Assembly: GCA_031835245.1 (NCBI GenBank) | Contig: JAVKOQ010000027.1 | Location: 267,480-331,479 of the forward strand | DNA: 64,000 nucleotides | Direction of reading: 5' to 3' | Source of the DNA: Balamuthia mandrillaris | Taxonomy: Eukaryota > Discosea > Longamoebia > Balamuthiidae | Shown here: one piece after another, positions 20,614 to 48,036 of the stretch | How the letters are laid out: every line of letters begins with the position of its first letter | Position numbering within the stretch: the stretch's first letter is position 1 | Notes under the pieces: model-generated | The model's database searches: none | Seen by the model: only the letters and a program-made list of their open reading frames with translations | Told to the model about the DNA's origin: nothing | Position numbers and translations under genes: made by a program

Positions 20614-21013
20614 TCCGCTAGCACACTTTTGTTTCTTGGCCCGTTCTTTCTGTGTGTTAAGATGTTGTTGAATTCGCTCGCTCTCCCGCAACTCTTCAAA
20701 GGTATTGCCCAAACCTGAGGTCCTCCTGCTTCTTCTTTTATTGCGTTGTTGGTGGGTGGGTGGTGGTGGTGGCAGTGGGTTACAAAAAATGACAAACAAT
20801 AAGTAACTCTGAGTGACCAAAAGTTTTCTTCCTGTCTACCTTTTTTTTCCATTTGCCATTTCGCTTGTGTGCACAAGTTGCGCAATTCCCTTGCTCCCTC
20901 CCCGGTTTTTAGGATAATTTTCCGTTATTTTCTTTCCCCGCTTTGCTAGGTTTCGACGCCCACCCTCGACAATTTTATTTGTTGAAAAAAGAGAATGATC
21001 AGATCCTGGAGGA
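20614..21013. other. PEX11 upstream region
   Basis: About 400 bp between the PEX11 start and the mobile element. Reading frames extend upstream on the minus strand (to 20885) but lack homology; they could be 5' UTR or an extra first exon. Nothing else recognised. Confidence 0.4.
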
Positions 21014-21021
21014 ATTCAAAC

Positions 21022-22241
21022 TAAGGCGGCGCAAAGATCATAAGATCTAAGGACAACGAAAAAAGAAATCCCGACATTAGTCTTTTGGGCCAATGAGCAT
21101 GTTTCCCGCCAAAACAACCCTTCCTTCTCCCACGTCTCTGAAGGCAAAGTGGTAGGGTGGGTTGTGGGGTGGGGTGAATGGAATGGATGCTCATGCTGCT
21201 GCTGCCGCCAATAAACTTTTGGTACTCGTCAGTCGCCTTGACATTTTTCTGCTACTCGTTTTCTTTTCTTCTCTTCTCTTCTTTTCTTTCTTTTCAAAAG
21301 TAAACACACAGACATCCACGCAGCTCCACGCACCACCGTATTTCTCATTGCTACGCTTCTACTACACAAGGAGGAAACCAGCGGAAGGAGGCAGAGGTGG
21401 AAACCGAAGCGGTTCAGCCGCAAGCAGGGGCACTGCTCCGATTGAAAAGGTAGCGTTCTTTTTTCTCTGCTCGCTCACTACATTTTTTGATGATGGAAAA
21501 AAAAATTTGTTACCAACCTCTCACTAATGATTTCTTTTGTTTAAAAAAGAACAGCATCACGAACCTCTGTGCGCCAAGGTCAACCACAGACAACGGCGCC
21601 GTCTCCGAAGGGCCGCTGCTCGGCTTCGCCAGAGGATCCGCAACCTGGTGGATGACCTCCACAAGAAGCTCGTGTCTTGGTTGGTCAGGAACTTCTCCGT
21701 CATCCTTCTGCCAGAGTTCAGGAGCCAGCAGATGGTGCGGCGAGGCCACCGCCGCATTGGCTCGCGAACGGCCAGAGCCATGCTGACCTGGTCCCACTAT
21801 CGCTTCAGGCAGAGGCTCCTCAACAAGGCCCAGCAATTTCCGTCCTGTACGGTCTGCCTCTGCGATGAGGAATACACCTCCAAGACCTGCGGCAAGTGCG
21901 GCCAAGTCCACCACCAGTTGGGGGGAAACAAGACCTTTCGGTGCCCTCAACCCGAGTGTGGCTACCAGGCGGATCGAGATGCCAACGCCGCCCGAAACAT
22001 CTTGATCCGCTTTTTTACGTTGCAAGCACTTACCACCTCCTCCTCCTCCTCTGTGAGGGGGCGGTAGGCGGTAAGGTTGCTTTGGTGCCGGCACCGTTGC
22101 TTATAGCGAGTCGTAAGATAAGCCGTGATTAGGCACGCCGGAGGTGGGTTATTTTTTGTGTCTCTGTTTTTTGTTTTCCTTTTACTAATTTTGCTTTATT
22201 TTCGTTGTCCCATTGATCGGCTTGATCTTGGCGCCGCCTTA
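21022..22241 (+). mobile_element. Fanzor (eukaryotic TnpB) DNA transposon, copy A, internally deleted
   Basis: A 1220-bp element. Its left end TAAGGCGGCGCAAAGATCA and right end (inverted) TAAGGCGGCGCCAAGATCA are imperfect terminal inverted repeats of about 45 bp that also share GGACAACGAAAA. They are flanked by the direct repeat ATTCAAAC at 21014-21021 and 22242-22249, an 8-bp target-site duplication. The interior encodes the C-terminal third of a TnpB-like nuclease. Compared with copy B (41.5 kb), about 975 bp between the left leader and the RuvC-II region is missing, and about 230 bp is extra near 21150-21360. The element lies between PEX11 and the MLO-like gene. TIRs plus an 8-bp duplication resemble hAT-like cut-and-paste elements; no transposase is encoded here, so movement would need one in trans. 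Confidence 0.85.
21537..22067 (+). pseudogene. Fanzor/TnpB nuclease, C-terminal fragment
   Basis: A 176-aa open frame. After a short unrelated leader it reads QRRRLRRAAARLRQRIRNL, VDDLHKKLVSWLVRNF, then the RuvC-II region ILLPEFRSQQ with its Glu. A zinc ribbon with four Cys follows (KTCGKCGQ and FRCPQPECG), then RuvC-III DRDANAARNIL with its catalytic-type Asp. This order is diagnostic for TnpB/Fanzor and Cas12-type nucleases. The N-terminal helix-turn-helix region and RuvC-I are absent through an internal deletion, so this copy cannot be a complete nuclease. The frame itself has no internal stop, which suggests recent origin or retained use. It ends 174 bp before the right terminus. Confidence 0.85.
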
Positions 22242-22249
22242 ATTCAAAC

Positions 22250-22667
22250 AGCGCTGACGTAGGCCAACGTCAACGAACATAAAGCAAGAACATAAAAGTT
22301 CCCCAGCGAAGGAAGAACGGAAGACGTGCGTTGCGTGCCTTGACTAAAGGCGGGCCTTACGCCTTTTCGTCTTTCTCCTTTAACGCAGACGCAGTTTAGC
22401 AGTTGGTGAAACTGCAACCCGCTTTCTCCCTTTCTCCTTCGCCTCCTCTTGCCTTTTTGCTCTCTTCCTGCGTGCTCTCTCGCCTTCCTTTTGTTGGGAA
22501 GGGAGAAAAAAAAGAACAGAACCTATCAAAAAAGAGGTGAAAGAATAGAAGCGTCAGTCTTTCTATTCTTTCACTTTCTTTCTGCTCACCTGCATATATT
22601 TATTGTATGAGGTGTTTGGGTGGTTGTCGCTCGCGAGAGCTAGCCCACACAGCAAAGCAGAAGCTTG
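22250..22667. other. MLO-like gene upstream region
   Basis: About 420 bp between the right target duplication of Fanzor copy A and the MLO-like start. It is pyrimidine-rich at 22375-22495, with an A-rich stretch near 22505-22530. No gene seen; probably promoter and 5' UTR. Confidence 0.4.
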
Positions 22668-41385: not shown

Positions 41386-41535
41386 ATGGACATCGGCAGC
41401 ACCATTGCCAAGGTTGCGACTAGCCTGGACGCTGCCTTTCAGCGTGAGGTCCAAATCCAAGCGGAGCAATGGAAGGACTTCAGGCAACCACTGCTCCTTG
41501 CGACCAGTAATCCTGAGGCGGCGCAAAGATCATAA
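41386..41535 (+). pseudogene. Short ORF running into Fanzor copy B left end
   Basis: An ATG opens a frame (MDIGSTIAKVATSLDAAFQR, then EVQIQAEQWKDF) that stays open for about 43 codons and then enters the Fanzor terminal repeat at 41514, stopping soon after. Composition looks like real coding sequence. No continuation is seen on the other side of the element, where the Ku80 3' end lies. It may be the start of a gene cut by the insertion. No family recognised. Confidence 0.35.
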
Positions 41536-41842
41536 TATCTAAGGACAACAAAAAAAGAAACCACGAATTAGTCTTTTGGGCCAATGAGCATGTTTCCCGC
41601 CAAAACAACCCTTTTCCCTCAGCATCAGGCAGGGGTGGAAACTGAAGCGGTTCAGCAGCAGGCAGGGGCACTGCTCCGATTGAAAAGGTAGCGTTCTTTT
41701 TTCTCTGCTCACTCCACTACATCTTTTGATGATGGAAAAAAAATTGTTACCAACCACTCACAAATGATTTCTTTTGTTTACAAAAGAACAGCATCACGAA
41801 CCTCTGTACGCCTGTTCCACAACGCTACTGGAAGCTGGCCTG

Positions 41843-43081
41843 AATGGCAAGTTGCCCACAGTGCGGAAAACAGTTTACTACCTCTCACGGGTTGGCCATC
41901 CACTTCGGAAGGGGTCGCGCCACTACTTCTGCTACTTCCACTGCTACTCGGAAAAGAAGAGCGGAAAACGCCCCGGCAGCACCTCACTCAAGGGCATAGA
42001 AGCGTGGAAGGCCGCAGGCTCCACTCGCCCAGCCCTTTTGGAACCAGTTTTCCAGCGAAATCGTGAGAAGCTTGATACGCCCGGAAGCCTTGTCCCTGGA
42101 AGAAACCTTTGCCCGTGGTTCAGGATGGTTCACCGCCTGCAAGCACATTCCAAACGGAGAAACGGTGTTGGAGGAGGAAGAGGAGAAGGAGAAGGAGGAA
42201 AAAGAGGAAGAGGAGAAGGAAGAGGAAGAAGAGGAAAAAAACCAGAAAGGCTTGTTAGACCTCATCGAGGGACTCATTCCGTCTCGCCCAGACGTACAGC
42301 TCACCAAAAAAGGCAAGAGAGCAGAAACCGGTAGTGGGGCGATTGGAGAAGATCCGCCTTTATCTGCGCTCGGAACAAAAGAAGACGCTGGCCAAGTGGT
42401 TCGGCACTGCACGATGGACCTACAACAAGGCCGTGGAGTTCCATCGTGAACATAAAAGAATGCCTATGAAGGAGATGAAGGAACAAGTCAGGGAAAAATT
42501 CCTGAATAACGGCAATTTCAACGGAGAGGACAAGAGCCTTGCGAGACTGGCTCTTGTCCACCAGATGAACGGCATAGAGCACCTCCGACGGAGAGCTCAT
42601 GGGCGAGAGCCAAGCCCGTGAGCACCGAAGGAGAGAGGCAGGCATCATCGCCTTGGATCCAGGAGTGCGCACTTTCATGACCACCTACAACGGCTGCGGG
42701 GAGGTCACCGAGTGGGGCAACGCGGACATCAACGAGACAGGCAAGCTGTGCCACCGCCTGGATCGCATGCAGAGTAAGGGCACCAAGGGCAACCACAGAC
42801 AACGGCGCCGTCTCCGAAGGGCCGCTGCTCGGCTTCGCCATAGGATCCGCCACCTGGTGGATGACCTCCACAAGAAGCTCGTGTCTTGGTTGGTAAGGAA
42901 CTTCTCCCTCATCCTTCTGTCAGAGTTCAGGAGCCAGCAGAACGACGGATGGATGGATTTTTTTTTGGGACCCTACTCTCTACCCCAGACTTCTGAGAAA
43001 GAAACAACCACAAGCTGCTCGCTGCAAGTGGTAGAGTGGGGTTGGGATTCGTATGCTCAGAAGGTGGGACATACCTCTTGA
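41843..43081 (+). pseudogene. Fanzor/TnpB nuclease, N-terminal and RuvC-I part, frameshifted
   Basis: Four consecutive frames together outline the protein. At 41843, MASCPQCGKQFTTSHGLAIH is a C2H2-like finger that runs into a stop near 41998. At 42063-42449 lies a Glu/Lys repeat and linker. At 42334-42621 is the TnpB DNA-binding region EQKKTLAKWFGTARWTYNKA plus VEFHREHKRMPMKE. At 42599-43081, RuvC-I reads IIALDPGVRTFMTTYNGCGE with its catalytic-type Asp, followed by the arginine-rich helix shared with copy A and RuvC-II (ILLSEFRSQQ) with its Glu. Homology stops near 42944. The segment between the DNA-binding region and RuvC-I is deleted. The zinc ribbon and RuvC-III are missing. Confidence 0.8.
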
Positions 43082-43430
43082 CGGGATACTCCTCTTCCTT
43101 CTCGACGGGATGCTCCTCCTGATCCTCCTGACGAGATGCTCCTCCTCCTTCTTCTTGATGGGATGCTCCTCTGCCTTCTCGACGGGATGCTCCTCCTCCT
43201 TGACGAGATGCTGCACTCCTTCTTCTTGACAGGATGCTCCTCCTCCTTCTTGACGGGATGCTCCTCTTGCTCGACGGGATGCTGCCCCTCCTCCTCACCA
43301 CCTTGCTCCTCTTCCTTCTTGATGAGATGCTCCTCTTCTTGACGGACGCTCCTCTTCCTTCTTGACGGGATGCTCAGCCTTCTCTTCGACAGGATGCTCC
43401 TCCTTTTCCATGGGATGCTGCCCCTCCTCT
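43079..43430 (+). repeat. Degenerate GACGGGATGCTCCTC minisatellite
   Basis: About 15 or more imperfect units of 15-24 bp built on TTGACGGGATGCTCCTCCTT. On the minus strand it could read as Glu/His/Pro/Lys repeats (EEHPVKKEEE type). It sits inside Fanzor copy B between forward and inverted pieces. Confidence 0.8.
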
Positions 43431-43616
43431 AAGACGTTGTGCTATCAATCCTCCTCAACAGGACACTGTCCCTTCCCAACTCTCCGTGCTGGAGTGCCAC
43501 AACTGAAGGGATGCTCCTCTCCTTGATGGGATGCTTTCCTTTCTCCTACTGCTCGTCTGGACGTCAGCTGCCCCTTGATGTCCTCCTGCAGGCCAGTATA
43601 TCCATACTGCCAACCC

Positions 43617-43705
43617 GTGAGAGGTAGTAAACTGTTTTCCGCACTGTGGGCAACTTGCCATTCAGGCCAGCTTCCAGTAGCGTTGTGGAACAGGCGTACA
43701 GAGGT
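43617..43705 (-). mobile_element. Inverted Fanzor leader/zinc-finger fragment
   Basis: Reverse complement of about 41808-41900: the two copies share the run from AACCTCTGTACGCCTGTTCC to the SCPQCGKQFTTSHGL-encoding segment. On the minus strand the finger frame continues further (to about 43455) than in the forward copy, without a stop near the start. Confidence 0.75.
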
Positions 43706-43737
43706 TAGTATATATCTTTTGTGGTCGGAATAGCCAG

Positions 43738-43803
43738 TCTCAGCATCCAAGCCAGGGAGTGGAACCACAACAGCTCCATCCGCCAACTCTACTTTGGGGA
43801 GGT
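43738..43803 (+). pseudogene. Fanzor central-domain fragment
   Basis: Plus-strand translation SIQAREWNHNSSIRQLYFGE, matching copy C's central domain. It is joined directly to the right terminal region of copy B. Confidence 0.75.
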
Positions 43804-43897
43804 GGGTTATTTATTTCCTCTGTTTTTTTCCCTTTTAGCTTTATTTTTTCATTGTCCCATTTGATCGGCTTGATCTTAGGCATTCAAGTGCTGCCTA

Positions 43898-47312: not shown

Positions 47313-48036
47313 TGGTCTGTGGTTGCCCTTGGTGCCCTTACTCTGCATGCGATCCAGGCGGTGTTACAGCTTGCCTGTCTCGTTGATGCCCGCGTTGCCC
47401 CACTCGGTGACCTCCCCGCAGCCGTTGTAGGTGGTCATGAAAGTGCGCACTCCTGGATCCAAGGCGATGATGCCTGCCTCTCTCCTTCGGTGCTCACGGG
47501 CTCGGCTCTCGCCCATGAGCTTCAAAGGCTGAGGCCCACAGAGGTAGTAATGGCCCAGTCGAGTGCCTTTCACCAGACGAACGGCATAGAGCACCTCCGA
47601 CGGAACTTGTAGTTCTTGCCCCTCGCTTTGATTGGCGCCTCCCCGAAGAAGAGTTGGCGGATGGAGCTGTTGTGGTTCCACTCCCTGGCTTGGATGCTAA
47701 GAGACTGACTCTTGTCCTTCCGACCATGAAACTTCATCTTGAATCCAGTCCTGCCCGCCGCCAAGCTGGTTTTCACGCCGTTGAAGAAATCATCGACGGC
47801 GTCACTGCGAATGTATCGAGTAGTTTCCAATGCCCACGCAAGGCTCTTGTCCTCTTGCCGTTATTCGGGAATTTCTTCCTGACTTGTTCCTTCATAGGCA
47901 TTCCTTTATGTTCACGATGGAACTCCACGGCCTTGTTGTAGGTCCATCGTACTGCGCTGAACCACTTGGCCAGCGTCTTCTTTTGTTCCAAGGCGGCCCC
48001 TACCCAGTTTAATGTTTCTTTGAAGTCCATTACAAA
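47313..48036 (-). pseudogene. Fanzor/TnpB copy C, central fragment without ends
   Basis: Read on the minus strand from 48030 downward. EQKKTLAKWFSAVRWTYNKA with VEFHREHKGMPMKEQVR is the DNA-binding region. Then come TTRYIRSDAVDDFFNGVKTS, FKMKFHGRKDKSQSLSIQAR and EWNHNSSIRQLFFGEAP (the TnpB central wedge region). A short out-of-frame stretch follows, then LGHYYLCGPQPLKLMGESRA and RuvC-I IIALDPGVRTFMTTYNGCGE. It stops at the point homologous to 42800 in copy B. Two or three frameshifts separate the pieces. No terminal repeats or target duplication are seen, so this is a transferred fragment. It holds the central domain that copies A and B lack. Confidence 0.8.

Follow-up and report, generated by a model that had tools for sequence, protein, structure and literature searches.

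Fanzor2 nucleases were first reported from IS607-type elements only, in the sections of PMC3627910 that deal with them. The same sections describe MuDR-like elements which carry Fanzor1 and make a 9-bp duplication, and report an OrfB helix-turn-helix for some TnpB and Fanzor2 proteins which was not determinable in Fanzor1. A further type, 'Fanzor2*', is presented in excerpts of PMC10711439: Fanzor2 proteins residing in transposons with terminal inverted repeats (TIRs), in the alga Chloropicon primus and in molluscs, and considered intermediates towards Fanzor1. According to these excerpts, a DPG motif combined with a shifted catalytic glutamate (E-alt) is the fingerprint of the Fanzor lineage.

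As outlined for TnpB systems in portions of PMC11870625, the guide is taken from the flank past the right end of the element and a TAM precedes the target; the joined site left after excision is cut and then restored from the sister which still carries the element. Two Fanzor2 enzymes use G-ended three-base TAMs, CCG and TAG (passages in PMC10432273). For an IS607 TnpB with the TAM GGG, the fixed base flanking the right end belongs to the scaffold, and the prediction for Fanzor2* assigns the entire duplication to it (excerpts of PMC10711439).

Here we describe a TIR element of the amoeba Balamuthia mandrillaris. The window, which is the whole stretch of 64,000 nucleotides analysed (contig JAVKOQ010000027.1, positions 267,480 to 331,479), contains this element at 21022–22241. 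It measures 1220 bp and its inverted ends of about 43 bp (left, 21022–21064, forward strand; right, 22199–22241, reverse strand), placed by end pattern search, end alignment and window scan, are 81% identical over 43 columns. The exact 8-bp repeat ATTCAAAC, read in the sequence and recovered by the scan, flanks the element at 21014–21021 and 22242–22249, as the earlier note had seen. The scan required 10-nt inverted ends separated by 0.5–5 kb and bordered by an identical 8-nt repeat on both flanks. It returned three placements in the window against none in 20 shuffled windows: the element itself and two inside an inverted pair of worn copies, at 42.7 and 47.4 kb. Since no shuffled window gave a placement and the 18-nt end recurs genome-wide, the arrangement is not a product of chance. 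Two further copies in the window were located by genome search and comparison with a long copy, L020 (C and L numbers denote contigs and loci). One, worn and rearranged, lies at 41514–43877 on the forward strand, and the NCBI protein P0037 maps to it; the other is a fragment at 47317–47988 on the reverse strand, equivalent to L020 1169–1866.

Relative to L020, the window copy consists of positions 1–558 and 1848–2516 joined with a 5-bp overlap, the junction lying at 21571–21575 (this and the following features are on the forward strand). Its 5′ non-coding part (21065–21570) is, with the end included, 96.6% identical to L020 1–558. The missing 1.29 kb or so (L020 559–1847) comprises the start, a C2H2-like finger, the helix-turn-helix and RuvC-I; an internal deletion in a non-autonomous copy had been proposed from the window alone, and the comparison bears it out. 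The frame at 21531–22064 (178 codons) matches the Pfam domain PF07282 (Cas12f1/TnpB C-terminal domain) at 1.3e-17, the last third of the NCBIfam TnpB model at 2e-24 (86.6 bits, with a model cut-off of 100) and the solved TnpB-like protein L79 (9b0l) at 1.2e-19. Fanzor sequence is confined to 21571–22064, the earlier portion of the frame being the 5′ non-coding end of the element. Hand counting from the translation places the E-alt codon at 21867–21869 (the first E of CDEEYTSKTC), the C4 zinc ribbon at 21888–21959 and the RuvC-III aspartate codon at 21978–21980 (within ADRDANAARN); both catalytic residues are invariant in the alignment, and the ribbon has a Pfam match and alignment support. The earlier note had listed RuvC-II, zinc ribbon and RuvC-III in this frame. 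The last two stand, whereas the canonical RuvC-II place is occupied by a proline and E-alt is found instead. The C-terminal frame is indeed open, as had been stated. However, its first ATG is at QQM, well within the domain, and RuvC-I is absent, so that it reads as a leftover and not as a gene. The stop codon and 3′ non-coding end (22065–22241) occupy the place predicted, by position only, for the Fanzor reRNA scaffold. The window element is a real, somewhat worn member of a Fanzor2* family, shortened by internal deletion.

The delimitation of the element by its ends is supported across the genome, where, with 2 mismatches allowed, the 18-nt end occurs 268 times and the reversed pattern twice. 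Searching with the window element gave at least 46 pieces (40 of 296 candidates scored). The matches form two groups, a 5′ and a 3′ block, which in longer copies are separated by extra DNA; long copies measure about 2.5 kb. A complete nuclease frame, which the earlier note thought might be found in other copies, is present from ATG to stop in 14 of the 20 loci compared (568–591 aa). The remaining six have a shifted C-terminus (one), an internal deletion (one) or early-frameshifting 4-base insertions (four); a frame start was seen in L011 as well, a copy with a deletion that is not among the 20 loci. At the protein level, at least 108 stretches were found (101 of 246 candidates scored). Twenty-five of these matches span 400 or more of the 411 residues, and all but one of them are free of internal stops, which does not prove an intact start, as the copy C114/L009 illustrates. 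The 14 open frames have a mean nucleotide identity of 98.1% and a pN/pS of 0.30, or 0.24 without singletons, in a set selected for open frames and with no transition-bias model. This ratio indicates that the nuclease protein is under constraint between copies. The nearest public proteins carry the NCBI name 'Transposase' [Balamuthia mandrillaris], and the only gene recognised in the long copies is the Fanzor2-type nuclease.

Some loci are reduced to 24–58 bp of both ends (L081 112–135, L104 111–146, L096 and C7:275837–275876). The 10-bp repeat is retained in L081 and, over the stretch read, in L104; these near-complete losses suggest excision scars or abortive repair. Identical left flanks occur on separate contigs in L108, L110 and L116, and also in L086 and L100, whose insides differ, suggesting duplicated stretches or haplotype contigs. 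A single scan of viral contigs with close-relative patterns found no relatives.

The long protein begins with MASCPQCGKKFATSHGLAIHFGRVH, in which a C-x2-C-x12-H-x4-H spacing can be seen directly. This probable C2H2 finger stays below the Pfam cut-off (E 0.016 in L016), and in L070, where one residue beside the cysteines is changed, only a weaker model responds (0.071). An acidic linker, the OrfB helix-turn-helix (PF12323, 7.5e-10 in L016) and the TNB domain (2.4e-16) follow. DPG, E-alt and the closing RD motif are all present in each of the 14 full frames. Across 40 aligned relatives, D373-P374-G375 (RuvC-I), E513 and R549-D550 are invariant; E513 lies seven residues before the first cysteine of the zinc ribbon, and an invariant proline (P461 of L016) holds the place of the canonical RuvC-II glutamate. 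The long copies thus have the Fanzor features of a RuvC-I DPG and a shifted RuvC-II glutamate, the RuvC-I of the window copy being deleted. Among the 120 relatives listed of 863, three of which are Balamuthia's own, DPG is found in 120 and an E-alt-like motif in 118; an N-terminal C2H2-like finger is found in one of the 120, again from Balamuthia. Compared with solved chains, the family profile hits L79 at 1.4e-47; the label Fanzor appears on none of the 20 chains retrieved. We take L79 (PDB 9b0l) to be a mimivirus Fanzor2. The PF12323 helix-turn-helix and the L79 match together make Fanzor2 look like the best filing for this nuclease. The Fanzor cargo announced by the earlier note is real, and by sequence nearer to Fanzor2 than its general 'Fanzor' implied.

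Of 24 copies read at both ends, nine lack a flank repeat and 15 carry one that reaches 8 bp or more. With a strict anchor, according to which the first 7 bases to the right of the element must recur to its left, 14 copies remain, and their duplications are 10 bp long in nine, 9 bp in three, 11 bp in one and 8 bp in the window copy alone. The left flank of the latter reads GAATTCAAAC at 21012–21021, so its 8-bp repeat is probably a 10-bp duplication, GAATTCAAAC, minus two bases beside the right end. The nine repeat-less copies are L009, L013, L016, L017, L020, L085, L086, L107 and L109, eight of which retain a CRG on the left; crossovers between copies would explain them. From the 8-bp repeat, a hAT-like carrier had been suggested in the earlier note, and the genome does contain nine hAT dimerisation-domain matches. 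However, the 13 other anchored copies duplicate 9–11 bp, and eight of the nine hAT loci, fetched with 1.5 kb on each side of the matched domain, showed no such ends at up to 4 mismatches in 18. Duplications of mostly 9–10 bp give no support for hAT, and we regard a carrier of this type as very improbable.

MULE/MuDR elements make duplications of 9–11 bp, a range that includes 13 of the 14 anchored copies. The genome has 72 weak MULE-domain matches. We scanned 30 of these loci together with 1.5 kb of sequence to either side and found no paired ends of this kind; a single end-like site, with 4 mismatches in 18, is present in L037 and another in L049, and such a scan may miss farther or more diverged ends. 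The linked transposase envisaged by the earlier note was found at none of these 30 MULE and eight hAT loci. We infer that the mover is a transposase acting in trans, MULE-like by its 9–10-bp duplications. A 4.9-kb pair of ends on C290 was considered as an autonomous candidate. We regard its two ends as unrelated, because a 1.2-kb piece from between them is single-copy in the genome and the frames there resemble host sequence. Separately, genes with weak MULE domains (frames up to 959 aa) lie about 1,290 bases from many contig ends, for instance about 1.29 kb from the start of C473, C321, C612, C138, C725, C361, C521 and others, as would a subtelomeric gene family or an end-seeking element.

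The insertion sites share a motif on one side only. In 11 of the 14 anchored copies, C[A/G] stands immediately to the left of the duplication (background 0.1055, binomial p 4.8e-9), and the first base of the duplication is G, likewise in 11 of 14. At the mirror place to the right, the complementary pair occurs in one of 14 (Fisher p 0.0003). We further compared 45 left ends (two with identical flanks dropped), 28 right ends and 13 others, the others being nine left-type ends whose inside is lost or different and four that are not left ends. Of the left ends, 35 of 45 have CRG with its G 8–11 bases from the end, compared with 4 of 28 right ends and 9 of the 13 others. A G directly follows 24 of the 28 right ends. 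Exact patterns searched genome-wide gave 43 places for CRG-N9-end and 34 for CRG-N8-end against 7 for CYG-N9-end, with no hit for the reversed controls; CRG and CYG are reverse complements as sets, hence equal in strand-averaged background. Two of the seven CYG places coincide with places in the set of 34, and because several flanks recur two or three times, copies in duplicated stretches are counted repeatedly. In duplications of 9 and of 10 bp alike, the motif sits at the beginning, and it is the spacing to the left end that shifts by one base. This constant position means that the motif is fixed to the join with the right end. In the window copy, AGG and not CRG stands at this place. The new observation here is this one-sided C[A/G]G next to the beginning of the duplication, at the position expected of a TAM.

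C[A/G]G could be the nuclease's own recognition motif. Each copy would produce a guide RNA from its right end, with the duplication and the right flank as the guide, and in the empty site the matching stretch would directly follow C[A/G]G, acting as TAM. With the right-flanking G counted as scaffold, the predicted TAM is C[A/G]G. After excision, the nuclease would cut the empty site and repair from an element-bearing copy would restore the element, such that copies at TAM sites would be retained. The window copy, having lost start, helix-turn-helix and RuvC-I, is expected to be unable to cut. With its right end still present, the most it could do is supply a guide to proteins made by other copies. 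The fixed distance of the motif to the right-end join, with a variable one to the left end, is what a TAM must show and counts for this reading, as do the G-ended TAMs of the two Fanzor2 enzymes and of the IS607 TnpB. Against it stand the nine copies of 24 without duplication, the AGG of the window copy and the failure to find a transposase at the loci scanned. The 3′ end lends it no support either: its fold (22030–22260) is at shuffle level (z 0.06, with 98 of 200 shuffles equally good). An alignment of 11 copies has one variable site in about 95 columns, and a 19-copy profile finds the 3′ end not clearly more conserved than the rest, missing ends blurring the outermost columns. Were the Fanzor2* view of the scaffold applied, 9–10 variable bases would lie within the scaffold, and the start of the guide would differ between the two views. 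Overall, we give roughly an even chance to a TIR family with the Fanzor2-type nuclease as sole recognised gene, moved in trans, with a right-end guide and C[A/G]G as TAM. We are more tentative, and on balance doubtful, about its extension, in which the insertion-site signature is written by the passenger nuclease: RNA-guided retention would build up copies, and deleted copies would persist as guide-only elements served in trans. If this were true, only copies with C[A/G]G beside the guide target in the empty site could be restored after excision, and a cut-and-paste element with no recognised mobility gene would gain copies by RNA-guided retention.

Alternatively, C[A/G]G could reflect the target preference of the transposase, one end being joined at a fixed motif and the other 9–10 bp away, with use as a TAM optional. 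The ends whose inside is lost or different bear on both readings: CRG persists in 9 of the 13 other ends (nine left-type, four not true left ends), which fits a preference of the transposase as well as a TAM and to that extent counts against the latter. In addition, the TAM of IS200/605 elements is also the preferred site of their transposase, as stated in portions of PMC11870625. A transposase which joins the right end at CR^G would give the same site pattern as a TAM, and the motif at lost-inside ends does not discriminate between the two. On the other hand, paired-end DDE transposases generally give two-sided site preferences, and here the motif is one-sided, its mirror place showing no more than background (1 of 14). 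We hold a preference of the transposase to be a serious competitor, if a less probable one than the combination of right-end guide and TAM.

Two other explanations concern the cargo. The Fanzor could be a neutral passenger that contributes nothing to how the element spreads. Deleted or broken copies are common, and clean duplications flank some of the short ones (L084, L115), although their deletions may postdate insertion. The pN/pS of 0.24–0.30 among the 14 open frames, as well as the 24 of 25 near-complete matches without internal stop, argue against neutrality and make it improbable. An ordinary IS607 element, composed of the serine recombinase TnpA and Fanzor2, might also be considered, since the same genome has such elements (L075–L077) and their Fanzors are about 42–58% identical to the nuclease of the TIR family. 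However, a tblastn search of 16 copies with the genome's own TnpA gave a single match at E 3.7, and the family has TIRs and duplications, which IS607 lacks. This explanation is the least credible of those considered. A TIR family with a right-end guide and a C[A/G]G TAM, at roughly even odds, is the reading we prefer.

The resident IS607-type elements L075–L077 encode a serine recombinase TnpA (Resolvase match at 4e-18 in L076). In a 64-row tree with no Fanzor1 rows, midpoint-rooted and subject to long-branch effects, the TIR family forms a long separate branch and L075 joins P0003 (91/93); a recent local capture from the resident L075 is unsupported by this grouping. A tnpA fossil within the TIR family was also considered and set aside, tblastn being negative and a pairwise test at shuffle level. 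An N-terminal 'PFW...SWF' peptide, present in 35 of 117 relatives, looks in the IS607 relatives like the +1 frame of tnpA. A profile of these 35 relatives scores 8.5 and 12.4 bits, whereas the highest score among 200 shuffles is 1.3, a signal which is only suggestive of such a fossil. In L075, L076 and L077, the long Fanzor frame extends back over tnpA in another frame. Only in L075 is the remaining tnpA stretch open throughout in the Fanzor frame, and recoding leaves it open by chance in 4–15% of cases; overlapping genes or a mere open frame are both possible. For the IS607-type Fanzor2 element in L077 (190–2564, i.e. C73:134189–136563), an empty site exists at C318:37261–38890. The element's left join has CAG followed by GTAAGT, and at its right end ATCAG is followed by T, with approximate borders; these ends look like those of spliceosomal introns. 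Scattered short stretches, about 50 bp for the L075 type and about 110 bp for the L077 type, terminate at the IS607-type right end (e.g. C728:2320–2370, C196:72219–72269 and C5:513727–513777).

These findings bear on why eukaryotic transposons keep Fanzors. Within one genome, a Fanzor2-type nuclease occupies many near-identical TIR copies and coexists with IS607 elements that bring a Fanzor2 of their own. From the insertion sites a specific TAM can be predicted, C[A/G]G, with the G that flanks the right end assigned to the scaffold. If the motif belongs to the nuclease and not to the transposase, it would constitute genomic evidence for RNA-guided retention in a eukaryote. In the open-licence literature we found no publication on a Fanzor in Balamuthia, two papers, both cited here, came up on Fanzor2 with target-site duplications, and the matches listed there for Balamuthia transposable elements contain nothing on this family.

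Judged by its sequence, the family fits a new lineage of the already described Fanzor2* kind, having TIRs and target-site duplications and not being IS607. As with the Fanzor2* of Chloropicon primus and molluscs, at least in the excerpts of PMC10711439, a Fanzor2 resides in a TIR transposon which duplicates its target. In contrast to these described cases, the Balamuthia family has an amoeba as host, a 9–10-bp duplication, an N-terminal C2H2-like finger and a one-sided C[A/G]G. The IS607-type Fanzor2 elements L075–L077 and L79, the best solved match, share the nuclease fingerprint and domains; the IS607-type elements possess a TnpA serine recombinase and no TIR, and the TIR family sits on its own long branch. 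Lastly, the MuDR-like elements of Rhizopus, Phycomyces and Mucor, as described in sections of PMC3627910, resemble the Balamuthia family in their TIRs, their 9-bp duplications and the absence of a transposase of their own, but their cargo is Fanzor1 and that of Balamuthia is Fanzor2.
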